This document shows positions 13,470 to 24,975 of a DNA stretch of 27,981 nucleotides, piece after piece. Origin of the DNA: a virus; IMG/VR virus record IMGVR_UViG_3300042987_001440, positions 1 through 27,981 of that record; one strand, 5' to 3'. The notes under the pieces are model-generated. The model did not search any database. It saw only the letters and a program-made list of their open reading frames with translations, and was not told where the DNA came from. The position numbers and the translations under genes are program-made. Each line of letters opens with the position of its first letter. Within the stretch, counting starts at the first letter, position 1.

Positions 13470-13922
13470 ATGACCAGGAAACTCGAAACCTCGCTCGTGT
13501 CGATCAGTTGCCCGGAGCTTCGGCGGGCTGGATTGTTCGTCGAGGGCAAGTCGAAGCTGCTGCGCTGGTCCAGCGGCACGAGTGTCATGGTTCGAGGCGG
13601 CATGACGTGTCTGGAGTTCGATGGCGTTGTGATCCCTCTGTCGTACACGCCAGCGAACCTCGGCGGTTGGCGACCGTGGATGCTCTGCGCCGGGTGCGAC
13701 ACGATGCGTGGCCGGCTCTTCCTCGACGCGGGCAAGTGGGTCTGCCGGATCTGCGCCGACATCCGCTACGCGACTGAAGGCGCACCGATGAAACGTCCAC
13801 GCATTCACACCCAGATCGCTCGTATTGACGAACGCGTGACCTGGGCTCGTCGACCGTGGCAAGCGCGAGCGTTGCTCGCGAAGCGTGCCAGGCTCGAAGC
13901 CAAACTCAAGGCGATGAAGTGA
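13470..13922 (+). CDS. Zinc-ribbon protein, first gene of the nonulosonate operon
   Basis: One hundred and fifty residues. The central LCAGCDTMRGRLFLDAGKW and CRICADIRYATEG contain two CxxC pairs (CAGC and CRIC) about 18 residues apart, a zinc ribbon. The C-terminal 45 residues are basic and helical (ARRPWQARALLAKRARLEAK). The pattern resembles a family of bacterial and phage zinc-ribbon proteins with 'CxxC...CRxC..L.Y' and unknown role; nucleic-acid binding is plausible. ATG at 13470 follows AAAAAGG. Its stop overlaps the GTG of the dehydratase gene (GTGA). Confidence 0.7.
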   Translation: MTRKLETSLVSISCPELRRAGLFVEGKSKLLRWSSGTSVMVRGGMTCLEFDGVVIPLSYTPANLGGWRPWMLCAGCDTMRGRLFLDAGKWVCRICADIRYATEGAPMKRPRIHTQIARIDERVTWARRPWQARALLAKRARLEAKLKAMK

Positions 13923-14737
13923 ACTCAGTTCTCATCACAGGCGGGTCAGGTTTCCTCGGGTGGGGGTTGATCTATGAGCTACTACGTCGAGGCGTGTCGA
14001 GGATATGTGTCTACTCCCGTGGCGAATACCGGCAGCATGTACTACGCACCCGGTTCACGGACTCGAAGATTCGATGGTTCATTGGTGACGTGCGTGACGT
14101 CGACAGGCTACGTCGCGCCATGCACGGGATTGACACCGTCATACACGCTGCTGCGCTCAAGCGCATCGAGGTAGGTGAGTACAACCCCAGCGAGATGTTC
14201 GCCACCAACATCCAGGGATCGCAGAACGTGCTCGATGCCGCGGAGTACGCAGGCGTGAAGCGAGCCGTGCTCGTGTCCAGCGACAAGGCGTACCAGCCCG
14301 TCAGTCCCTACGGCATCTCGAAGGCGGCAGCCGAAGCGCTATTCCGTCGGCATAGCGGTCGGCTCGAGACGTGTGTCGTGCGCTACGGCAACGTGGCAGG
14401 CTCGACCGGATCGGTCATCCCCATGTGGCGCGACATCCAGGGCGTGGTGCGCGTGACTGATCCGACTTGCACCAGGTTCTGGATGTCGCGTGAGCACGCG
14501 GTCGAGTTCGTGCTACAGGCCGCACACGCTACGCTGCCTCGTGAGGTGTGTATTCCGAAGTCATTGCCCGCATTCAGGCTCATGGACTTGGCGACCGCGA
14601 TGAACAAGGAGTACACGGTCACGGGGCTGCCAGAGCACGAGAAGCTGCACGAGTCCATGGGTCCGGGGCTGTCGAGCGATCAGGCTCGACGCATGACCGT
14701 CAACGAGATCAAGGAGGCGCTTCGCAGTGTCCCGTAA
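13919..14737 (+). CDS. PseB-like UDP-sugar 4,6-dehydratase (SDR)
   Basis: A 272-residue NAD(P)-dependent SDR enzyme: Rossmann motif TGGSGFLG at about 7-14, then GDVRDVDRLRRAM, VIHAAALKRIEVGEYNPSE, and the active site SSDKAYQPVSPYGISK (D122, K123, Y131, K135). The Asp-Lys pair before Tyr distinguishes PseB/FlaA1-type inverting 4,6-dehydratases (UDP-GlcNAc, with C5 epimerisation) from ordinary epimerases, and RYGNVAGSTGSVIPMW is typical of the same group. It should start the pseudaminic pathway. It is shorter than typical PseB (about 330 aa), mainly at the C-terminus. GTG at 13919 overlaps the upstream stop. Substrate stereochemistry is inferred. Confidence 0.85.
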   Translation: MNSVLITGGSGFLGWGLIYELLRRGVSRICVYSRGEYRQHVLRTRFTDSKIRWFIGDVRDVDRLRRAMHGIDTVIHAAALKRIEVGEYNPSEMFATNIQGSQNVLDAAEYAGVKRAVLVSSDKAYQPVSPYGISKAAAEALFRRHSGRLETCVVRYGNVAGSTGSVIPMWRDIQGVVRVTDPTCTRFWMSREHAVEFVLQAAHATLPREVCIPKSLPAFRLMDLATAMNKEYTVTGLPEHEKLHESMGPGLSSDQARRMTVNEIKEALRSVP

Positions 14738-15383
14738 CCCGCACCAAGTGACGAAGGACTTCGAGGCTGCGCTCTGCGAGTACACGGGCGCGCCGTACGC
14801 TGTCGCGGTGAACTCCTGCACGATGGCTCTCACGCTGGCCGTGGCGTGGCATTTGCGTCATGAGTACCCTGGGTGGGTTGTGGAGCATGAGATCACCATC
14901 CCCAAGCGCACCTACGTCTCCGTGCCCCAGGCGATCATCCATGCTGGCGGCCGTCCGGTATTCGACGATCGGGAGTGGCTGGGCTACTACCAGTTGAAGC
15001 CCCTCCCGGTATTCGACTGCGCTCGTTGGTTCTCTGAGGATATGTACAGCGCGGACCCCCCGTGGCGCGATGGTGGGGGCTATGACGGTAACATGCTCTG
15101 TGTCTCCTTCCATGCGTCCAAGACTCTCGGCCTGGAGCAGGGCGGCGCGATCCTGCATGACAACCCCGAGGCTGATGCCTGGTTCCGCCGTGCGCGCTTC
15201 GACGGTCGAGCCGAAGGTGTGGCGCCGAAGGATGACACGGGCATCATCGTAGGCTGGCACGCGTATATGAATCCCTCCACGGCTGCGCAAGGTATCCTGA
15301 AGCTACATTCACTCCCCCGCCATAACGAGCCCCTTCCAAATGACGACTATCCAGACCTCTCCATCCTTGACATCTTTCGCTGA
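14727..15383 (+). CDS. Short DegT/DnrJ/EryC1-type (PseC-like) sugar aminotransferase
   Basis: The product has family landmarks: VAVNSCTMALTLAV (substrate/PLP phosphate region), VFDCARWF (D97 at the PLP-ring position) and SFHASKTLGLEQGGAI, with K132 as the presumed PLP lysine. It would add the 4-amino group to the keto sugar made by the PseB-like enzyme. At 218 residues it is far shorter than the usual 370-390: the small C-terminal domain is missing. The end YPDLSILDIFR looks natural rather than torn. The following HNH gene overlaps it by 44 nt. Either it is a minimal phage form or a truncated one. GTG 14727 overlaps the upstream gene. Confidence 0.75.
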   Translation: MSRNPHQVTKDFEAALCEYTGAPYAVAVNSCTMALTLAVAWHLRHEYPGWVVEHEITIPKRTYVSVPQAIIHAGGRPVFDDREWLGYYQLKPLPVFDCARWFSEDMYSADPPWRDGGGYDGNMLCVSFHASKTLGLEQGGAILHDNPEADAWFRRARFDGRAEGVAPKDDTGIIVGWHAYMNPSTAAQGILKLHSLPRHNEPLPNDDYPDLSILDIFR

Positions 15384-15705
15384 GCGGTTCTGGGCGAAGG
15401 TGAAGAAGACGCGCGCCTGTTGGAACTGGACCGCGGGATGCTTCAATCACCCTCGTGGGGGCACGAGCTACGGCTGTTTCTACTTGGGTAGCCGAACCGA
15501 TGGCACGCGGAAGATGCACCCTGCTCATCGCGTTGCGTACGAGCTTTCTGTCGGCGCAGTGCCTCCGGGCATGAAGGTTCTCCACAAGTGCGACAATCCC
15601 CGCTGCGTTAACCCAGCGCACCTGTTCCTGGGCACGCAGCGTCAGAACGTCGATGACATGGTGGCGAAAGGTCGTGCCTGGTGGCAGGCAGGAGGTTCGA
15701 AGTGA
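15340..15705 (+). CDS. HNH endonuclease embedded in the nonulosonate operon
   Basis: This 121-residue HNH_3-type protein has an aromatic front (FWAKVKKTRACWNWTAGCFN), the AP2-like HPAHRVAYELSVGAVPPGMK, and the catalytic block VLHKCDNPRCVNPAHLFLG, with H-K-C-D, two Cys and N-P-A-H. A tail with NVDDMVAKGRAW follows, as in phage homing nucleases. It is probably a mobile, free-standing homing enzyme. It starts inside the aminotransferase gene in another frame, so insertion did not disrupt transcription. The stop overlaps the GTG of the DUF3310 gene. Confidence 0.85.
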   Translation: MTTIQTSPSLTSFAERFWAKVKKTRACWNWTAGCFNHPRGGTSYGCFYLGSRTDGTRKMHPAHRVAYELSVGAVPPGMKVLHKCDNPRCVNPAHLFLGTQRQNVDDMVAKGRAWWQAGGSK

Positions 15706-15917: not shown

Positions 15918-16210
15918 CCGTCCAGATCCGTGACGACAAGCAAGCGCTACGCGTGAGCATCCCGCCGACCGGCGAACTCGACATGCCGGCCGCGATCGAG
16001 CTCGCGCGTGACCTGATCGATGCCGTGACCCAGTGTGGGTTCGAAGTCAAGATGAACGTCGAGGTGCCTCGTCATCAGCCGACCGATCACCAGCTTGCGC
16101 TGGCTGTCACGCGCGTGGGGCACATCCGGCGCAACGCGCAGCACGCTCGATGGGACGACGGCAGGACCAACAGCGAGATCGTGATGCGCGTCGTGGAGGC
16201 TTGCCTGTGA
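15914..16210 (+). CDS. Hypothetical protein (98 aa) in the operon
   Basis: The product starts with beta-like TVQIRDDKQALRVSIPPTGE, then a helix (PAAIELARDLIDAVTQCG), FEVKMNVEVP and a C-terminal helical part with HIRRNAQHARWDDGRTNSE. The layout (strand-strand-helix-strand) would suit a small alpha/beta domain. I do not recognise the family. GTGA overlaps on both sides show tight coupling to DUF3310 and the cytidylyltransferase. Confidence 0.65.
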   Translation: MTVQIRDDKQALRVSIPPTGELDMPAAIELARDLIDAVTQCGFEVKMNVEVPRHQPTDHQLALAVTRVGHIRRNAQHARWDDGRTNSEIVMRVVEACL

Positions 16211-16806
16211 CCTGTGTCGCCATCATCCCCGCCCGCGGCGGCAGTCAGCGCATCCCTCTCAAGAACATTCGCCTCTTCCACGGCAAGCCGATTATTGACT
16301 ATTCGATCAAGGCTGCTCAGGACTCGGGCCTCTTCCAGCGTGTGTTCGTATCCACCGATCACGTTGGCATAAGTTCGGTGGCGTACAGAGCAGGCGCGGA
16401 CGTGCTCTGGCGTCCCGACAGCCTCGCGAAGGACAGCGTAGGCACGCAGGCCGTGATGGCTGATGCACTCAGCACGGTTATGCGAGACTGGATCGCGGTC
16501 AAGCCCCCTGTCTATGCCTGCTGCATATACGCCACGGCACCGTTGATGACGAGCTTGGATCTGATCCACGGGTACGCGCACCTACGAGCGCTCGACGTGC
16601 CCTACGTGTATACGACCGGCCCGGACTGGCAGGACGCCGGTCAATGGTACTGGGGCACGGTGCGCGCGTTCCTCGACGGCGTGTCGCTCGACCAGGCGCG
16701 CTTCTATAGCTTGCGCGAGGCGCGTGTTTGTGACATCAACACCGAGGACGACTGGCAGCGAGCCGAGCAACTGTATGCCAATTTCATAGGGAGCAAGCGT
16801 GTCTAA
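16207..16806 (+). CDS. PseF-like CMP-nonulosonic acid cytidylyltransferase
   Basis: A 199-residue member of the CMP-sugar synthetase family: IPARGGSQRIPLKNIRLFHG at about 7-26 is the CTP-binding signature; VFVSTDHVGISSVAYRAGAD and DSVGTQAVMADAL follow. CIYATAPLM and the end DINTEDDWQRAE fit pseudaminic-acid cytidylyltransferases (PseF) better than NeuA. It should activate the nine-carbon acid with CTP to CMP-sugar for transfer. Its presence shows that the operon makes an activated donor, not just an intermediate. GTG at 16207 overlaps the upstream stop. Confidence 0.9.
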   Translation: MTCVAIIPARGGSQRIPLKNIRLFHGKPIIDYSIKAAQDSGLFQRVFVSTDHVGISSVAYRAGADVLWRPDSLAKDSVGTQAVMADALSTVMRDWIAVKPPVYACCIYATAPLMTSLDLIHGYAHLRALDVPYVYTTGPDWQDAGQWYWGTVRAFLDGVSLDQARFYSLREARVCDINTEDDWQRAEQLYANFIGSKRV

Positions 16807-17368
16807 CGGTATCGAGTTGTGGCGGGGCGAGTTCGGAGACGAGTACACCAAGCGCAATCAGGTGGATTGGCGCAGCCGGGGCAGGTTCTGGGGCGACCTT
16901 TTCTTCAACACGGGTGCGCGTTCCGTGCTCGAAGTCGGATGCAATGCTGGCTGGAACCTGAGTTCCATCAGGCGCGAGTACCCTGACGTCCGTGTCGCCG
17001 GCACCGACATCAACGAGGCTGCGCTCGAACAGGCGCACGCCGCGGGCCTGGAGGTGTACAACTGCCTTGACTTCCGAGCGGTCCCTGGCAAGTTCGAGTT
17101 GGTGTTCACGGCAGGCGTCCTGATCCACATCGAGCCGCAGCATGTGCGCGAGGTGATGGCGGCCATCATCGACAAGTCGTACCGATGGGTGCTTGCGGTC
17201 GAGTACGAGGACTCCTACGAGACGGCGATCCCGTATCGAGGGCACGCCGACAAGTGCTGGAAGCGGCCCTACGGCAAGCTGTACGAGGACATGGGGCTCA
17301 AGCTCGTGGAGAAGTCGTTCCCGGCGGGCTTCGACAACTGCACTGCGTGGCTGATGGAGAGGCAGTGA
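16799..17368 (+). CDS. Pseudaminic acid biosynthesis-associated SAM methyltransferase
   Basis: One hundred and eighty-nine residues. The start IELWRGEFGDEYTKRNQ is the characteristic opening of the pseudaminic-acid-associated methylase family. SAM motif I is VLEVGCNAGWNLSSI (about 43-57), then GTDINEAALEQA, then FELVFTAGVLIHIEPQHV, and the late VEYEDSYETAIPYRGH and CWKRPYGKLYE repeat the family pattern. It probably methylates the sugar or its N-substituent. GTG at 16799 overlaps the cytidylyltransferase by 8 nt. No DNA-methylase DPPY or NPPY motif is present, so a DNA target is unlikely. Confidence 0.85.
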   Translation: MSNGIELWRGEFGDEYTKRNQVDWRSRGRFWGDLFFNTGARSVLEVGCNAGWNLSSIRREYPDVRVAGTDINEAALEQAHAAGLEVYNCLDFRAVPGKFELVFTAGVLIHIEPQHVREVMAAIIDKSYRWVLAVEYEDSYETAIPYRGHADKCWKRPYGKLYEDMGLKLVEKSFPAGFDNCTAWLMERQ

Positions 17369-17616
17369 GCGACGAAGACATGCTGAAGCTGAGGCATCTT
17401 CCTGGCACTACGCTGACGCCCGAGGTAGTGCTGCACCGTACGCTCAACAAGCTGCCGCGCATAAAGGCGGTGGCGATAGTGATTCAGTGGGATGACGGCA
17501 GCATGGATACGGATTGGTCACAGATGCAGCGATCGGAATTGTTTATGACGGCGTACTCTCTGACGAGTGACGTCCACGCGTTAATGCGTGGCGACACTAG
17601 CGTGGAGGGGGTATGA
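17365..17616 (+). CDS. Small conserved phage-type protein (83 aa)
   Basis: The core AIVIQWDDGSMDTDWSQM flanked by KLPRIKAVAIVI and SELFMTAYSLTSDVHAL is a pattern I associate with small hypothetical phage proteins ('WDDG...TDWSQM'). No enzymatic motif is visible. GTG at 17365 and the terminal ATGA overlap bind it tightly to the methyltransferase and the amidotransferase genes. Confidence 0.65.
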   Translation: MSDEDMLKLRHLPGTTLTPEVVLHRTLNKLPRIKAVAIVIQWDDGSMDTDWSQMQRSELFMTAYSLTSDVHALMRGDTSVEGV

Positions 17617-18674
17617 CCCTCTGCACGCGCTGCATCTACCCTGACACGCGCCCCGACGCACACTTCGTCAACGGCGTGTGCTCGGCTTGCCGGTCGTACG
17701 CCGAGCGCCAGTACGTTGACTGGGGCGTGCGAGCCTCCGTGCTGCGGGACATGCTCTACGCCGCCAAGCGCAAGCTCGCCCCCTACGACTGCGTCGTGCC
17801 AGTGTCCGGTGGCAAGGACAGCACGTACCAGGTCATCAAGCTCATCGAGCTAGGAGCCAAGGTGCTCGCGGTCAATGCCGGCACGGACTACCTCACGCCG
17901 CTCGGCCGGCACAACCTGGACAACCTCAAGCGCTTCTGTGACGTGATCGAGTGGACGCCCAACATCGAGGTGCGCAAGAAGCTCATCCGCATCGGGTTGC
18001 GGCAGGTGGGCGACTTGTCCTACCCCGAGCATCTTGCCATCTGGGCGATCCCCATGCGCGTGGCGACCTTGATGCGCATCCCGCTGGTCGTGTGGGGCGA
18101 GCAGCCGCAGCGTGAGTACGCCTGCCCCGAGGGCGTGCCGCCGGCTACTCGTCTCACGAGCCGGTGGGTGTCCGAATTCGGAGGGCTGCTCGGCCTGCGC
18201 TTGTCCGACTGCGTTGGCTTGGAAGGGCTGACCGAGCGCGATCTGGAGCCCTTTCGATTCCCGTCCGACACGGACCTCGACGCTGCTGATGTCAGCGGCA
18301 TATGGCTTGGCGACTACGTCGACTGGGACGGGTGGAAGAACGCGTTCATCGCCCAGCAGTACGGCTTTCAGGTGGGAATGGCCCCCGTGGAGACGAGCCT
18401 TGCCAACTACGAGAACCTGGACAACTACGTCACTGTGCTGCGCGATCATTTGCGTTATCTCAAGTACGGCTACACTCGCGCCACCGACATTGCCTGCTCC
18501 CACATCCGCCGCGGCAGACTGTCGCGCGAAGAAGCGCTTCGCCTGGTGGAGCGAGCCGGACACACGCCCCTCACAAGCCTGGGCAAGCCGATCGATGAAG
18601 TGCTCGCCTACGTGGGTATCTCCCGGCGCGAGTGGGACGAGGAGTGCGTGAAGTGGGCCTCGCAGTCCGAGTGA
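17613..18674 (+). CDS. N-acetyl sugar amidotransferase (PseA/WbpG family)
   Basis: The protein (353 aa) has an N-terminal zinc site (CTRCIYPDT, C4 and C7; CSAC, C23 and C26), then the ATP-pyrophosphatase PP-loop SGGKDS at 65-70, then conserved ALINE-like blocks (AVNAGTDYLTPLGRHNLDNL, HLAIWAIPMR, VVWGEQPQREYACPE). WbpG and PseA enzymes use ATP and ammonia to convert an N-acetyl group on a sugar to N-acetamidino, giving acetamidino-modified pseudaminic or related acids. The ammonia normally comes from HisH through a HisF-like partner, which is the next gene here. ATGA overlap with the upstream stop. Confidence 0.9.
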   Translation: MTLCTRCIYPDTRPDAHFVNGVCSACRSYAERQYVDWGVRASVLRDMLYAAKRKLAPYDCVVPVSGGKDSTYQVIKLIELGAKVLAVNAGTDYLTPLGRHNLDNLKRFCDVIEWTPNIEVRKKLIRIGLRQVGDLSYPEHLAIWAIPMRVATLMRIPLVVWGEQPQREYACPEGVPPATRLTSRWVSEFGGLLGLRLSDCVGLEGLTERDLEPFRFPSDTDLDAADVSGIWLGDYVDWDGWKNAFIAQQYGFQVGMAPVETSLANYENLDNYVTVLRDHLRYLKYGYTRATDIACSHIRRGRLSREEALRLVERAGHTPLTSLGKPIDEVLAYVGISRREWDEECVKWASQSE

Positions 18675-19372
18675 TCCCCACGCTGCTCGCCAAGGGAAAG
18701 CAACTGGTCAAGGGCCAGCGCTTCAACCCCAACCGAGTCGTGGGTCACGTTCAACAGGCCGCCCGCGTGCACCAAGCTCGTGGCGTCGATGAGCTATGCA
18801 TCCTCGACGTGGCCGCCACACCGACGGGCCGCGGGCCTGATTTTGACGCGATCGAGGCTCTCACGCAGAACTGCTTCATGCCCCTGACGGTTGGTGGAGG
18901 CGTAAGCACGTTGGGCGACGTCGAGCGATTGCTGCGCGCAGGCGCGGACAAGGTGGCGATCAAGAGCGCCTACTACGCCGACTTCGACTTCCTCGACGCT
19001 TGCGCTAATCGGTTCGGGTCTCAGGCGATCGTGATAGCGCTCGACGTGAAGGAGGAGCGCCGCAACGATCGGATCGTGATCGACCTGGCCCGGGACATCG
19101 AGGCTCGTGGCGCTGGCGAGATCCTGCTCACTGCGATGGACCGCGAGGGCACGATGGAGGGCTACGACCTGGCGTTGATCCACGCGGTAGCGCATGCCGT
19201 AGACATACCTGTCATTGCGCATGGCGGGTGTCGCAGCTACCAGGACATGCACGCCGCGATCCGGGCTGGTGCCTCTGCCGTGGCTGCCGGCGCGTTGTTC
19301 CAGTTCACCGACGCCACGCCTCGCGGGGCCGCCGAGTACCTGTACATGCAGGGGGTGGAGGTGAGGCTGTGA
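18653..19372 (+). CDS. HisF-like (beta-alpha)8 barrel partner of the amidotransferase
   Basis: A 239-residue TIM barrel with HisF landmarks: RVIPTLLAKGKQLVKG, ELCILDVAATPTGRG, LTVGGGVSTLGDVERLLRAG, DKVAIKS, VIALDVKEE (D131), AMDREGTMEGYDL and VIAHGGCRSYQDM. In true HisF the first strand carries the catalytic Asp11 (IPCLDV); here that position is Leu12 (IPTLLA). It is therefore probably not histidine synthesis but the WbpI/HisF2-type carrier of ammonia to the PseA-like enzyme. GTG 18653 (GAGGAG 8 nt upstream) is chosen by homology to the normal N-terminus; GTG 18671 would give a GTGA overlap. Confidence 0.85.
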   Translation: MGLAVRVIPTLLAKGKQLVKGQRFNPNRVVGHVQQAARVHQARGVDELCILDVAATPTGRGPDFDAIEALTQNCFMPLTVGGGVSTLGDVERLLRAGADKVAIKSAYYADFDFLDACANRFGSQAIVIALDVKEERRNDRIVIDLARDIEARGAGEILLTAMDREGTMEGYDLALIHAVAHAVDIPVIAHGGCRSYQDMHAAIRAGASAVAAGALFQFTDATPRGAAEYLYMQGVEVRL

Positions 19373-19815
19373 GGGAGACGAAGCGTGGGCGTAGTGTCGT
19401 GATCAGCCTGGTGGACATCTACACCCGCTGGGACCAATTCATCGGCCCGTTGTACGCGTTGCTGTCGGAGCGTACGCCCGAGCAGAGCATCAGCCACAAG
19501 CGGATGCCGACGATGGCGCAGCACACGGAGTTCGTCGGCAGCCGGCCGTACTTGCACTGGTACGAGATACTGGCCGACGGCAAGTCGGTCGGCGCCATCT
19601 ACCTCTCGAAGCAGCGCGAGATCGGCGTGTCGATCTTCATCCATCAGCAGCGCAAAGGCTACGCTCGCGCGGCCGTGCTTGAACTCATGCGCCTGCACCC
19701 GGGCAAGTTCCTCGCCAACGTCAACCCGAAGAACGAAGCGAGCATCAGGCTCTGGGAGTCGCTCGGATTCAACTTGCTACAGGTGACCTATGAGAGCCCC
19801 GTACATCGTAGCTGA
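19369..19815 (+). CDS. GNAT N-acetyltransferase, candidate PseH-like enzyme
   Basis: This 148-residue acetyltransferase contains QSISHKRMPTMAQHTEFVGS, YLHWYEILADGKSVGAIYLS, EIGVSIFIHQQRKGYARAAV (the acetyl-CoA loop, variant RxxGYA) and NVNPKNEASIRLWESLGF. The N-P-K-N-x-A-S-x-R-L segment is usual for GNAT enzymes of the RimI/PseH type. In this operon it would acylate the 4-amino group of the sugar before release and condensation, filling the PseH step. Its exact substrate is inferred. GTG at 19369 overlaps the HisF stop. Confidence 0.8.
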   Translation: MRETKRGRSVVISLVDIYTRWDQFIGPLYALLSERTPEQSISHKRMPTMAQHTEFVGSRPYLHWYEILADGKSVGAIYLSKQREIGVSIFIHQQRKGYARAAVLELMRLHPGKFLANVNPKNEASIRLWESLGFNLLQVTYESPVHRS

Positions 19816-20779
19816 AGTATCGTGCAACCATCTGGGCAGCCTCGACCGTGCGCTCGCCTTGATCGCCGCGGCAGCCGCGGCCGGCGCCGACGCGGTCAAG
19901 TTCCAGTGCTGGGCCGATGACAAGATGGTGCTGGGCGACTACACAATCGCTGGCACGGTGTGGGACGGCAGAGACATGCGGGCACTGTACCGCGAGGCGT
20001 GGACTCCGTGGGAGTGGTTCCCATTGCTCTTCGACCACGCCCGGGCGCACAAGATCGGGTGCTTCGCTTCCGTGTTCGACCACGAGTCGCTCGCCTTTCT
20101 CGAAGGCCTCGGCTGCCCACGGTACAAGATCGCGAGCTTCGAGATTGTGGACCTACCCTTGATCGAAGCGGTGGCGAAGACCGGCAAGCCCATTGTCATC
20201 AGCACTGGGATGGCGACCCATCACGAGGTCGGTCGTGCATGGGAATTGGCTGAAAACCTTGACGCGGATGTGACGCTGCTCAAATGCACCAGTGCTTACC
20301 CGGCAACGGCCGCCTCTGCGAACCTGAATACCATGCTCGACATGATGGACCTTTACTATCCTATCGGGCTCTCCGACCACACCCTTGGGCTCGTGGTCCC
20401 GGTCGCCGCCACCGCGCTCGGCGCGACCATGATCGAGAAGCACATCACGCTCAAGCGCTCCGACGGCGGCCCGGATGCCGCGTTCTCGTCCGAGCCGCAC
20501 GAGTTCAAGGCCATGGTCGATGCGTGCCGCGAGGCGGCTTTGTCGATCGGCACGGTCACCTACGGCCCGACCGAGTCCGAGCTACCTTCGCTCCAGTTCC
20601 GGCGCAGCCTGTACTGGGCTCGCCCATTGCGCGAGGGCGAGATCGTTCTTGCCAGCGATCTGCGCACCGCTCGCCCTGCACTCGGTGAACCTCCGTCCAA
20701 GCTGGGCAAGTTCATCATGCGCCGTGTTCGGCGCGACGTGGACTTCGGCGACCCCGCGCTTCTGGAGGACGTGGACTGA
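19790..20779 (+). CDS. PseI-like pseudaminic acid synthase
   Basis: A 329-residue NeuB-family enzyme that condenses a 6-deoxy-2,4-diacylamino hexose with phosphoenolpyruvate to a nonulosonic acid. Landmarks: IVAEVSCNHLGSLDRALALI (6-25), GADAVKFQC, GTVWDG and LYREAWTPWEW (the TxWDG...LY.eAxTPWEW run is specific for PseI rather than NeuB), YKIASFEIVD, STGMA (138-142), KCTSAYPA, GLSDHTLG (193-200), EKHITLKRSDGGPDAAFS and a C-terminal SAF-like domain (about 272-325). Length and both domains are normal. It overlaps the GNAT gene by 26 nt. Confidence 0.92.
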   Translation: MRAPYIVAEVSCNHLGSLDRALALIAAAAAAGADAVKFQCWADDKMVLGDYTIAGTVWDGRDMRALYREAWTPWEWFPLLFDHARAHKIGCFASVFDHESLAFLEGLGCPRYKIASFEIVDLPLIEAVAKTGKPIVISTGMATHHEVGRAWELAENLDADVTLLKCTSAYPATAASANLNTMLDMMDLYYPIGLSDHTLGLVVPVAATALGATMIEKHITLKRSDGGPDAAFSSEPHEFKAMVDACREAALSIGTVTYGPTESELPSLQFRRSLYWARPLREGEIVLASDLRTARPALGEPPSKLGKFIMRRVRRDVDFGDPALLEDVD

Positions 20780-21624: not shown

Positions 21625-22011
21625 ATGCCGAGAGCATCTGGACTGCTTCAACCTACCGACGACCGAGCGCTTGCGCCGAGCACGGTCATCACGTTTCTGA
21701 TGACCGGCGGATCGAGCGCTCAGGCAAGCGATTGGCCTGCCGACACGGGCTCCGCAGCCGCGAACGCCGGCACCGCCGGCATCCACCTTGTGCGCATCAC
21801 TCCGGTGTCGACCGCCGGGGGCGCGTTCTTCTGCACCGCCAATCTCCATAGCACCGCAGCCACGGTCCCCTCCAGTGGCGTCACGGTGTCGACGACTTCG
21901 AACGCGCCCGTGATGTCGGCTCGGGAGTTCCAGGTCACTGGCGGTTCCACGGGATTCAGCTTGGCTGCCTACACCAGTGGCGTGGTCATGGTTGAGTGTT
22001 GGCGCAAGTAA
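21625..22011 (+). CDS. Probable structural (decoration-like) protein (128 aa)
   Basis: A threonine-, serine- and alanine-rich beta protein: RALAPSTVITFLMTGGSSAQ, then GIHLVRITPVSTAGGAFFCT, then VTVSTTSNAPVMSAREFQVT and a short end. Such composition is typical of small virion surface or decoration proteins. TAAGGAGCCGTT precedes the ATG at 21625. If virions are glycosylated, its many Ser/Thr residues are possible acceptor sites; that is speculation. Confidence 0.55.
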   Translation: MPRASGLLQPTDDRALAPSTVITFLMTGGSSAQASDWPADTGSAAANAGTAGIHLVRITPVSTAGGAFFCTANLHSTAATVPSSGVTVSTTSNAPVMSAREFQVTGGSTGFSLAAYTSGVVMVECWRK

Positions 22012-22062
22012 CTCCGCAGCAATCAAGCAATGCCGCTAGTCGGCGAATAAAGGAGTATGACC

Positions 22063-22518
22063 ATGGCATGGTACGATCGAATCACCACATCACTGCACGG
22101 GCGCCGTGTCGGCCTGCAACGGCTTTCCAGTTCCCAGGACGCGCGCAAGAACGAAGTCCTTGTCGGCCCGGAAGCCATTCGCACCTACGCGACGACCGGC
22201 GACTCTACCGGCACCAACCTGGCACCTTACGGCGTGAGCCTGCTCACGACCGTGTCGTCCAGTTGCGTGTTCGTTCTCGACCCGCCCATTCCCGGCGTGC
22301 AGAAGACGCTGGTGTTTGGCTCGACGGGCGGCGGCTCGATGTACGTCAAGACCGCCAACAGCGAGACGATCATCAGCACTCTGGGGTCGAGCTTCACTAC
22401 GCTCAAGAGCACGGCCGGCAACGGGGGCACGGTGACGCTGCAAGGCGTCACGACCGCGATCTGGGCCTGGGTCGGCACCGGGTCTTCCCTGGTGGCTGCC
22501 GCTACGACATCGACCTGA
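22063..22518 (+). CDS. Probable structural protein, related in style to its neighbour
   Basis: This 151-residue Ser/Thr/Gly-rich protein reads VGPEAIRTYATTGDSTGTNL, LLTTVSSSCVFVLDPPIPGV, KTLVFGSTGGGSMYVKTANS and ends in low-complexity AAATTST. Beta-strand-rich with few charges, it resembles head fibre or decoration proteins in composition. ATG 22063 is chosen because AGGAG is 7 nt upstream (1 nt for the ATG at 22057). Assignment to the virion rests on composition and location. Confidence 0.55.
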   Translation: MAWYDRITTSLHGRRVGLQRLSSSQDARKNEVLVGPEAIRTYATTGDSTGTNLAPYGVSLLTTVSSSCVFVLDPPIPGVQKTLVFGSTGGGSMYVKTANSETIISTLGSSFTTLKSTAGNGGTVTLQGVTTAIWAWVGTGSSLVAAATTST

Positions 22519-22528
22519 TGGAGGGTTT

Positions 22529-23362
22529 GTGGCCGACCAAAAGCAGGTAGCACTCATCGGCAGCGCGCCGGCCTCCATCCGGCTCGCGCCGTACAACGAC
22601 CCCTCGTGGCAAGTGTGGGGTTGCTCTCCGGGAGCCTACGGGGTCGTCCCCCGTGGGCGCTCGAACATCTGGTTCGAGATGCATCGCTATGAACCTGGGC
22701 AGACATGGTTCAGCCCCGAGTATTGCCAGTTCCTGCGAGATCACCCGTGTGTCGTGGTTGCAGAACCGCGCCCCGAGATCCCGAACGGCATCATGCTCGA
22801 CTACGATGCGCTCGTGAAGAAATACTCGCCGTACTTCTTCACGTCCTCCATCGCTTGGATGATGGCTCACGCGATCGAGATCGGTGCCACCAAGATCGGT
22901 CTGTGGGGTGTCGACATGGCCGCGAACGAGGAGTACGAAGCCCAGCGTGCTGGCCTTCACTACTTCGCGCTCATCGCCGCTCAGAAGGGCATCGAGGTCG
23001 GCGTGCCTCCCGAGTCGGATCTCTTCCGGCCGCGCTTCCTCTACGGCGTGGACGAGGTGAAGCACTTCCACGTCAAGATGCGCGCACGCCGTGAGGAGTT
23101 GAACCAGCGGTTGATGGCCGCCGAGCAGGCGGTGCAGCAGAAGCAGCACGAGGCCGCGTTCATCCGTGGCGCGTTGGACGACCTCAACTACTGCTTCCAG
23201 ACCTGGCCCGACAAGACCAACTACCTTGAACCACCGAAGGCCGCTCTACCGCCGGCAGAGGTGTTCCAGTCTGTTGTGTTCGACGCAAGCAATCCGGCAA
23301 TCGCACAGACATCCACCGAGGTGCCGGCGGCAACGCCGAGCGTCATGGCGAACTTTCGATGA
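22529..23362 (+). CDS. DUF115/GT42-like protein, candidate sugar transferase
   Basis: A product of 277 residues. It opens with VALIGSAPASIRLAPYNDPS and VWGCSPGAY, close in pattern to the 'GxGPSL...D...cN' nucleotide-sugar site of GT42 sialyltransferases and DUF115 (MptE/Maf-like) proteins. About residues 103-135 read FFTSSIAWMMAHAIEIGATK and IGLWGVDMAA, matching 'TSg..a...Ai.lG...I.L.GiD' of the same fold. Maf proteins move pseudaminic acid onto flagellin. The C-terminal third is coiled coil (REELNQRLMAAEQAVQQKQH) with a variable tail. Similar phage proteins occur without sugar genes, so transfer of the nonulosonate is a hypothesis. GTG 22529 follows GGAGGG. Confidence 0.6.
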   Translation: MADQKQVALIGSAPASIRLAPYNDPSWQVWGCSPGAYGVVPRGRSNIWFEMHRYEPGQTWFSPEYCQFLRDHPCVVVAEPRPEIPNGIMLDYDALVKKYSPYFFTSSIAWMMAHAIEIGATKIGLWGVDMAANEEYEAQRAGLHYFALIAAQKGIEVGVPPESDLFRPRFLYGVDEVKHFHVKMRARREELNQRLMAAEQAVQQKQHEAAFIRGALDDLNYCFQTWPDKTNYLEPPKAALPPAEVFQSVVFDASNPAIAQTSTEVPAATPSVMANFR

Positions 23363-24975
23363 CGGCCCCCGCACTGAATCTTGACGAGATCGTGGCGAGG
23401 CTGACGGGCTTGCCCCCGGCTTCGCTTCGTCAGGTGCAAGAGTCAGTGGGGGCGTTGACCGCGAAGTTCCGGTGGCAGCCTAATCCCGGCCCGCAGACCG
23501 AAGCCTACAATTCCAAGGCCGACGTGCTGCTGTACGGGGGCGAGCCCGGGGGCGGCAAGACTCAGCTACTCCTCGGGCTCGCGTTCAACGAGCATCGGGA
23601 GTCGATGATCTTCCGGCGCAAGTACACCGACCTCGACCGCATCATCCGCGATGCGCTCAAGATCCATGGCTCTCGCGATGGGTTCAATGGATCGGCACCG
23701 CCGAAGCTGAAGCTCGGCGACGATCGCCTGATCTCGTTCCGTGCAGCCCAGAACGTGGGCGACGAGCAGAGCACCATGGGCGACGGGCGAGACTTCCTCG
23801 GCATCGACGAGGCGACCCACTTCGCCAAGTCGCAGATCCAGTTCCTCATGGGCTGGGTGCGTACCGATCGCCCGGGTCAGCGCACGCGCACCGTGCTCGC
23901 GACCAACCCACCTCTGGCGGCCGAAGGGTTGTGGGTCGTCGAGATGTTCGCCCCCTGGCTCGACCCGCAATTCCCCGTGCCGGCAAAGCCGGGGGAGCTT
24001 CGCTGGGTCATCACCGACGAGGACGGCAATGACCGCTGGGTCAACGGCCCCGATCCGGTGTCGATGGCGGGGCGGCTCATCAAGCCAAAGAGCCGTACCT
24101 ACATCCCGGCCAGCATGTCGGACAACCCCTACTACGTCGACAGCGACTACCGACGAGAACTCGACGCCATGCCCGAGCCCTTTCGCTCGATCCTCATGGG
24201 CGGGTTCCGCACGAGCTTCAAGGACGCCGACAACCAGGTGATCCCCACGGCTTGGGTGCAGGCAGCACAGTCTCGCTGGAAGCCCGAGCCACCTCCCGGC
24301 GTGCCGTGCTGCGCGATGGGCGTGGACATGAGCGGCGGCGGCGCGGACCCGATGATCATTGCGCCTCGTTGGGACGGGTGGTATGACAACCTCATAGAGA
24401 TCCCTGGCAAGGACATCCCCCAGGACCGGGCTGGGGCGTGGTGCGCGGGCCAGGTGCTGACGTACCGGTGCGACAAGGCGCTGGTCGTGATCGACATGGG
24501 CGGCGGCTACGGAGGTTCGATCTACGAGCGGTTGAAGGAAAATGACATCGAGACGGTCGGCTTCCGCGGTGCTGAGGGCACTCCCCGACGCTCGAAGGAA
24601 GGCAAGTACAAGTTCCCCAACAAACGATCAGCCGCGCACTGGCTCTTTCGTGAGGCGCTCGACCCCGGGCAGCCCGGTGGGTCGCCGATCGCGTTGCCGC
24701 CCATCCCCCGGCTGCTGGCAGACCTGACCGCAGCGACCTTCGAGGTCACGGCGAACGGTATCAAGGTCGAGGCGAAAGAACATGTGTGCGCTCGCCTGGG
24801 ACGTTCCACCGACTACGGTGACGCCGTTATCATGGCCTGGTTCGAGGGGCCAAAGGAAACGTCGGCAGCGCTTGACTGGATCGACAACCGGATCACCCGA
24901 GGCAGCAGTCGTCGCCCGCAAGTGATCGGCGTACGCCCGGCGTTGAGCGCCCGGAGGTACACGAACCATGGTTGA
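23359..24975 (+). CDS. Terminase large subunit
   Basis: A 538-residue packaging motor. ATPase: Walker A GGEPGGGKT at 60-68, Walker B FLGIDEAT at about 146-153, coupling motif TRTVLATNPP. Nuclease: MGVDMSGGGADPM (first Asp), ALVVIDMGGGYGG (second) and STDYGDAVIMAWF (third), the RNase H-like triad. It translocates DNA into the prohead and cuts the concatemer. ATG overlaps the preceding stop as ATGA. Length and all motifs are intact. Confidence 0.95.
   Translation: MTAPALNLDEIVARLTGLPPASLRQVQESVGALTAKFRWQPNPGPQTEAYNSKADVLLYGGEPGGGKTQLLLGLAFNEHRESMIFRRKYTDLDRIIRDALKIHGSRDGFNGSAPPKLKLGDDRLISFRAAQNVGDEQSTMGDGRDFLGIDEATHFAKSQIQFLMGWVRTDRPGQRTRTVLATNPPLAAEGLWVVEMFAPWLDPQFPVPAKPGELRWVITDEDGNDRWVNGPDPVSMAGRLIKPKSRTYIPASMSDNPYYVDSDYRRELDAMPEPFRSILMGGFRTSFKDADNQVIPTAWVQAAQSRWKPEPPPGVPCCAMGVDMSGGGADPMIIAPRWDGWYDNLIEIPGKDIPQDRAGAWCAGQVLTYRCDKALVVIDMGGGYGGSIYERLKENDIETVGFRGAEGTPRRSKEGKYKFPNKRSAAHWLFREALDPGQPGGSPIALPPIPRLLADLTAATFEVTANGIKVEAKEHVCARLGRSTDYGDAVIMAWFEGPKETSAALDWIDNRITRGSSRRPQVIGVRPALSARRYTNHG

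Follow-up and report, generated by a model that had tools for sequence, protein, structure and literature searches.

A candidate Maf-like nonulosonate transferase gene in the packaging module of a BPP-1-like phage with a pseudaminic acid cluster

The stretch of DNA analyzed here, called the window below, has a length of 27,981 nt and is the whole of positions 1 to 27,981 of the IMG/VR virus record IMGVR_UViG_3300042987_001440. Table 1 lists its pseudaminic acid (Pse) cluster and, downstream of it, two genes for small Ser/Thr-rich proteins, the gene under study, and the terminase gene. Because the terminase resembles that of Bordetella phage BPP-1 and its relatives (Rauchvirus), and because the order terminase-GNAT-portal is common to both, the window represents a BPP-1-like podovirus. 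Unlike the window, BPP-1 lacks detectable PseI/NeuB, an annotated protein intervening between TerS and TerL, and a homolog of the gene under study.

Table 1. Positions of the Pse cluster, the gene under study, and its neighbors in the window
Feature	Position	Strand	Remarks
PseB-like UDP-GlcNAc 4,6-dehydratase	13856..14737	+	best NCBIfam model PseB, below cut-off
Short PseC/DegT-like aminotransferase	14727..15383	+	218 aa; best match, below cut-off
PseF-type CMP-nonulosonate cytidylyltransferase (makes the CMP donor)	16033..16806	+	179 bits, cut-off 206
Pseudaminic acid biosynthesis-associated methylase	16799..17368	+	TIGR03587, above cut-off
WbuX-type N-acetyl sugar amidotransferase	17613..18674	+	TIGR03573, above cut-off
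WbuZ/HisF2-type acetamidino modification protein	18632..19372	+	below cut-off
GNAT acetyltransferase, possible PseH	19228..19815	+	
PseI, pseudaminic acid synthase (makes the nonulosonate)	19790..20779	+	373 bits, cut-off 340
Family c6, Ser/Thr-rich (26%), probably a structural protein; second candidate acceptor	21625..22011	+	128 aa
Ser/Thr-rich (29%) protein, family c2, candidate acceptor	22057..22518	+	153 aa
Candidate Maf-like nonulosonate transferase (DPSW family)	22529..23362	+	277 aa, GTG start
Terminase large subunit	23359..24975	+	41% identical to BPP-1 bbp25

Based on the NCBIfam matches, and with the GNAT protein as a possible PseH, the cluster is predicted to produce CMP-activated pseudaminic acid, which probably bears an acetamidino group. 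The catalytic part of the PseF-type protein starts at about residue 60. A PseG-like protein was recognized neither in the cluster of the window nor in that of L252, a representative of the ~75-kb phage lineage described below. The short PseC/DegT-like protein apparently lacks the usual C-terminal part, for which the homologous DNA of the related phage L002 leaves little room. Directly after its gene, an HNH_3 homing-endonuclease-like gene (15340-15705, + strand) is located inside the cluster.

The gene at 22529-23362 has a GGAGG directly 5′ of its start codon, and its stop codon overlaps the start codon of the terminase gene in the sequence ATGA. A first-pass annotation had proposed a nonulosonate transferase, based on three elements resembling GT42 sialyltransferases and DUF115/Maf proteins. 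All three were located in the protein and are conserved, i.e. GSAPAS (residues 11-16), CSPGAY (residues 32-37), and FTSSIAWMMAHAIEIGATKIGLWGVDM (residues 104-130). The gene also lies where it had been placed, with the two Ser/Thr-rich proteins upstream and the terminase downstream. In comparison with the L002 relative (84% identical), dN/dS is 0.14 overall and 0.076 over the first 230 codons, showing that strong purifying selection acts on the gene. The low dN/dS, the presence of more than 140 viral relatives, and residues that do not vary among 60 relatives confirm that it is a genuine gene and not a chance ORF.

Searches of Pfam, NCBIfam, and PHROG with the protein gave no usable family, and a PDB search with its single sequence returned chance matches only. 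In IMG/VR contigs, successive protein and profile scans retrieved 6, 24, and then 141 relatives, which are called the DPSW family here. The 50,697 GenBank phage records contained one member (Microcystis phage PP496355, 31% identity), a plasmid search gave none, and one scan of 84,980 prokaryote species genomes gave a single contig, in a Betaproteobacteria MAG, which is probably a phage. The family is therefore confined almost entirely to viruses and is hardly represented in cultured phages. The label “type 11 methyltransferase” on the Microcystis phage relative is supported neither by fold nor by sequence. A few long ORFs were considered as domain fusions and rejected, i.e. those of 631 and 577 aa, in which the N-terminal stretch resembles out-of-frame readthrough, and one of 541 aa, the length of which is due to an intein insertion.

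The first-pass annotation had suggested checking whether the gene and the Pse genes co-vary, and had noted that phages with the gene but without Pse genes would weaken the link. BPP-1-like relatives were picked by their terminase alone, using whole records of at least 20 kb. Fourteen of these have both the DPSW gene and PseI/NeuB, and seven lack both. PseI alone occurs in none, and the DPSW gene alone in three, in each case near a contig end with the upstream side missing. Among the records with the gene and without NeuB, G030, G038, G044, and L235 carry the gene near a contig end. In the 18 GenBank phages that have a related terminase, tblastn found neither gene. Across all typed loci, which were partly chosen via these genes and include some records twice, 50 have both, seven have neither, and one has the DPSW family only. 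In a terminase tree of 46 typed phages the DPSW gene switches state four times, with NeuB in agreement. There are only three to four independent changes within the BPP-1-like lineage and three independent pairs (sign test p 0.25), so this control is consistent with co-variation but small. As a background value, the NeuB protein of the window matches just 3 of the 50,697 GenBank phages.

The pairing recurs in a lineage of ~75-kb phages, for which no similarity to the terminase or portal of the window was detectable in the stretches read. The DPSW family occurs together with NeuB in 12 of the 13 records larger than 70 kb and together with NeuA in all 13; in the NeuB exception (G015) the cluster is cut by the contig end, and NeuA is located at its end. 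The Pse cluster of this lineage differs in its makeup from that of the window; it encodes PseB and PseI, both above the cut-offs, a full-length PseC, a formyltransferase, and an oxidoreductase, and the DPSW gene can be more than 20 kb away from it, among structural genes. The complete Microcystis phage has a distant DPSW member and neither NeuB nor NeuA, which counts against the link. The gene thus co-varies with PseI/NeuB in the BPP-1-like lineage and is paired with it again in the ~75-kb lineage. Taken together, the genetic link of the DPSW family to the Pse pathway is well supported. As a side observation, the Pse cluster of the ~75-kb phages includes a fusion protein (L252:4196-6289) in which a cytidylyltransferase is joined to an aminotransferase of class III (GSA-aminomutase-like).

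For the protein, AlphaFold predicted a model with a mean pLDDT of 86.7 and values of more than 90 in the core, except for a short loop near residue 135. It consists of a Rossmann-type core (residues 1-170), a long helix (residues 179-225), and a disordered tail. Foldseek against the PDB placed chains of CstII (GT42) at ranks 1-10 (best E 5.4e-6), followed by thiamine pyrophosphokinase and Cst-I. VIA-align Z scores were 10.8 for MjHPPK (MptE, PF01973), 10.3-10.7 over ~150 residues for Cst-I, CstII, and 9c08 (Pasteurella), and 10.5 for thiamine pyrophosphokinase, so that this top group is a tie; animal sialyltransferases had values of 6.7-7.5. The predicted relationship to GT42 and to DUF115/Maf thus agrees with the model, for the latter at the level of the fold, where the PF01973 likeness rests on MjHPPK, and the Maf structure 5MU5 was not among the matches listed. 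The GT-A-like single Rossmann domain of GT42 is recognizable in the predicted model, as is the PF01973 domain fold, and the former is common to MptE and thiamine pyrophosphokinase.

Sequence comparisons gave weaker signals. A 22-member profile searched against 177,635 PDB sequences had GT42 proteins as the top eight matches, each of them weak (E 0.03-0.9), and the protein belongs to no Pfam family, so membership in GT42 by sequence was not found. PF01973 was matched weakly by four of the 22 relatives (E 0.029 or worse); the protein itself gave no match and does not reach the curated cut-off. The DPSW profile matches phage PF01973 proteins co-linearly, but the match is weak (E 0.009, probability 4%). 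The catalytic or central domain of Maf is PF01973 and was reported to be similar to Cst-II (PMC11339370). This likeness, together with the Foldseek, VIA-align, and profile matches, gives good support for a predicted fold of the GT42/Maf/MptE superfamily. The modeled fold by itself does not discriminate between a transferase and a kinase.

Five residues, E50, H52, D129, E135, and Q139, are invariant in 60 of 60 relatives, and 59 of these retain T105, S106, S107, and R140. The invariant polar set is located at or near the glycine-rich loop and the GxDM strand and would fit a putative nucleotide-sugar donor site. Inteins favor essential conserved sites, and in one relative (L240:2321-3943, - strand) the protein is interrupted by an intein of ~260 aa precisely at the junction of GVDMSA and TEEYGYQR, which points to a functional role of the GxDM/E135/Q139 region. 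The catalytic base of GT42 is His188 in CstII (PMC4202792). Judged by sequence order, the 60 relatives have no conserved His after the D129/GxDM strand, and H52 precedes that strand; H52 and E135 are candidate catalytic bases. Because the His after the GxDM strand is missing, the protein should not be classified as a GT42 member.

The neighbors of the DPSW gene are of virion type in both lineages. The usual order is c2 - DPSW gene - terminase in the BPP-1-like lineage, and in the ~75-kb lineage the DPSW gene is usually located between the families c5 and c4. Proteins of c2, c5, and c4 are small, with Ser/Thr contents of 27%, 22%, and 24%, respectively, compared to about 10% in terminase and portal. 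One member of c5 has a match to a virion structural family in PHROG, and in Rhizobium phages a distant c2 homolog directly follows the major head gene. For the c2 protein of the window, an all-beta model of moderate confidence was obtained (pLDDT 72), and its best PDB match (E 2.2e-4) is the capsid spike of a Pseudomonas phage. Within the BPP-1-like lineage, c2 is present in all typed phages with the DPSW gene and in one of the seven without it. The Ser/Thr richness, the capsid spike match, the head-gene homolog, and the co-occurrence with the DPSW gene suggest the c2 protein as the first candidate acceptor.

NeuB-carrying viral records without the DPSW family (21 of 48) are mostly large and have a distant NeuB. 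Among the 30 records with the NeuB nearest to that of the window, 25 contain the DPSW family, and two of the other five contain true PF01973 proteins. In G074 (L265:4025-7699), a viral record of 88 kb, a PF01973-TPR protein of 864 aa with similarity to NCBIfam PseD and a PDB match to 5MU5 is encoded directly after PseI. In G075 (L264:2686-6860), the head module encodes two PF01973 proteins, which follow the major head protein and a virion structural protein. A PF01973 search had no match in the ten IMG/VR DPSW-family records included, nor in the Microcystis phage. Other nonulosonate phages therefore appear to fill the transferase slot with Maf-type enzymes. Separately, the records G091-G097 and G101 (~53-160 kb) have a NeuB with 32-34% identity, no DPSW family, and mostly no PF01973 protein.

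The DPSW protein can be compared with three groups of known proteins. The Maf flagellin nonulosonosyltransferases (MAF_flag10/PF01973; PDB 5MU5) have the same superfamily fold, and both types of genes travel with Pse genes and lie beside genes for Ser/Thr-rich surface-type proteins. In contrast to Maf, the DPSW protein has only about 280 aa, with no N-terminal domain and no recognizable TPR or helical-bundle acceptor domain; after the core, the model has just one long helix (residues 179-225) and the disordered tail. In addition, the DPSW family is virus-only and below PF01973 detection, and no flagellin gene was seen in the phage record. The GT42 enzymes Cst-I and CstII (Campylobacter) and 9c08 (Pasteurella) are the best Foldseek matches and have in common with the DPSW protein a glycine-rich G-x-x-P-S loop and the helix-strand motif TSS..WM..AI..GA..I.L.GVD(M/F). 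However, the identity is ~15-20%, the His after the GxD strand (CstII His188, Cst-I His202) is absent from the DPSW protein, and GT42 enzymes use glycan acceptors, whereas the proposed acceptor here is a virion protein. MptE and thiamine pyrophosphokinase have an equal VIA-align Z and the same Rossmann-type core, but they are pterin and thiamine kinases, while the genomic link of the DPSW gene is to nonulosonate genes. The protein is best regarded as a new variant of the Maf-like nonulosonate transferases, minimal in form and found in viruses only.

The interpretation that accounts best for these results, and that we regard as fairly probable, is that a minimal Maf-like pseudaminyltransferase acts together with the phage's own Pse pathway and glycosylates the virion. 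PseB, PseC, the GNAT protein, and PseI would generate pseudaminic acid, WbuX and WbuZ would probably add the acetamidino group, and PseF would produce CMP-Pse. The DPSW protein, as a small soluble glycosyltransferase and a stripped-down relative of the Maf catalytic domain and of GT42, would then move the sugar from CMP-Pse to Ser/Thr residues of an acceptor in the cytoplasm, in all likelihood the capsid-spike-like surface protein c2 or another structural protein of this kind. Newly made virions would then bear a sialic-acid-like sugar, presumably with a benefit to the phage. The general idea of the first-pass annotation, i.e. a nonulosonate transferase, is supported. A transferase function as such is likely. 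If it is a transferase, a virion protein is the more probable acceptor; the Maf-like link to nonulosonate synthesis and the Ser/Thr-rich virion-type neighbors were both observed, and we infer the acceptor role from position and composition. The assertion that the phage has no classical glycosyltransferase held for GT2, which was absent from 39 related phage records; for other GT families, which were partly covered, it stands to that extent.

An unlikely explanation, yet the most probable of the alternatives, is a CMP-nonulosonate transferase that acts on a molecule of the host surface (a lipid-linked sugar, lipooligosaccharide, or flagellin) and remodels the cell surface, e.g. for a superinfection block. 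The nearest solved structures, LOS sialyltransferases, act on glycans, and phage genes altering host surface glycans are well known. Phage-encoded enzymes that convert pseudaminic acid have been described in A. baumannii (PMC12053666). However, the DPSW gene is located in the packaging or head module beside virion-type proteins in two unrelated lineages, in a third lineage PF01973 relatives are encoded next to the major head gene, and the distribution of c2 follows that of the DPSW gene; these observations argue against a host acceptor. It is improbable that the protein is instead a missing pathway enzyme, e.g. the UDP-sugar hydrolase PseG, although PseG was not recognized in the clusters of the window and L252, and the tight linkage to PseI is what a pathway gene would show. 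The distance from the Pse cluster and the location among structural genes in the ~75-kb lineage do not fit this proposal, and known PseG is a GT-B-type enzyme and thus has another fold. Furthermore, the place of the DPSW protein is taken in other nonulosonate phages by Maf/PF01973 proteins, and Maf is a transferase (PMC11339370).

Still less probable is a pyrophosphokinase or another nucleotide enzyme of the MptE/thiamine pyrophosphokinase type without any connection to sugars. The tied VIA-align scores and the weak matches to PF01973, which is named after MptE, are compatible with such an enzyme, but it would leave unexplained the joint presence and absence with PseI and NeuA and the replacement by Maf, and GT42 is first in Foldseek and in one sequence profile. 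The overlap with the terminase start codon and the position beside the terminase in the BPP-1-like lineage would also suit a packaging or head-assembly protein, e.g. a terminase partner, that uses a nucleotide-binding fold. This is the least probable of the explanations considered, since BPP-1 and seven typed relatives do without the gene, it does not adjoin the terminase in the ~75-kb lineage, and its association is with PseI and not with the terminase.

In the open-access literature, coverage of which was incomplete, we found no report of a Pse pathway encoded by a phage together with a transferase for the virion. If virion glycosylation by the DPSW protein is true, phages make a bacterial sialic acid analog and use it on their own particles, which would represent a novel type of virion modification, and a virus-only family of more than 140 environmental phage contigs, nearly absent from cultured phages, would gain a function. 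A minimal Maf would also reveal the requirements of the transferase core, and a pseudaminyltransferase that is compact and soluble could be of practical use. We consider it an even chance that several unrelated phage lineages combine a Pse-type pathway with a dedicated, virus-only minimal Maf-type transferase (or Maf) in the head or packaging module and place acetamidino-Pse on their own capsid spikes.

Some phages have more than one DPSW-family gene. One phage contains two differing copies in tandem (L239:1809-4033, - strand). A second, very distant paralog is present in L243:3076-3708 and L245:3404-4057 as well as in the records G080, G083, and G084; it has about 210-217 aa in the loci read and is located ~10-15 kb from the main copy, in another gene neighborhood.
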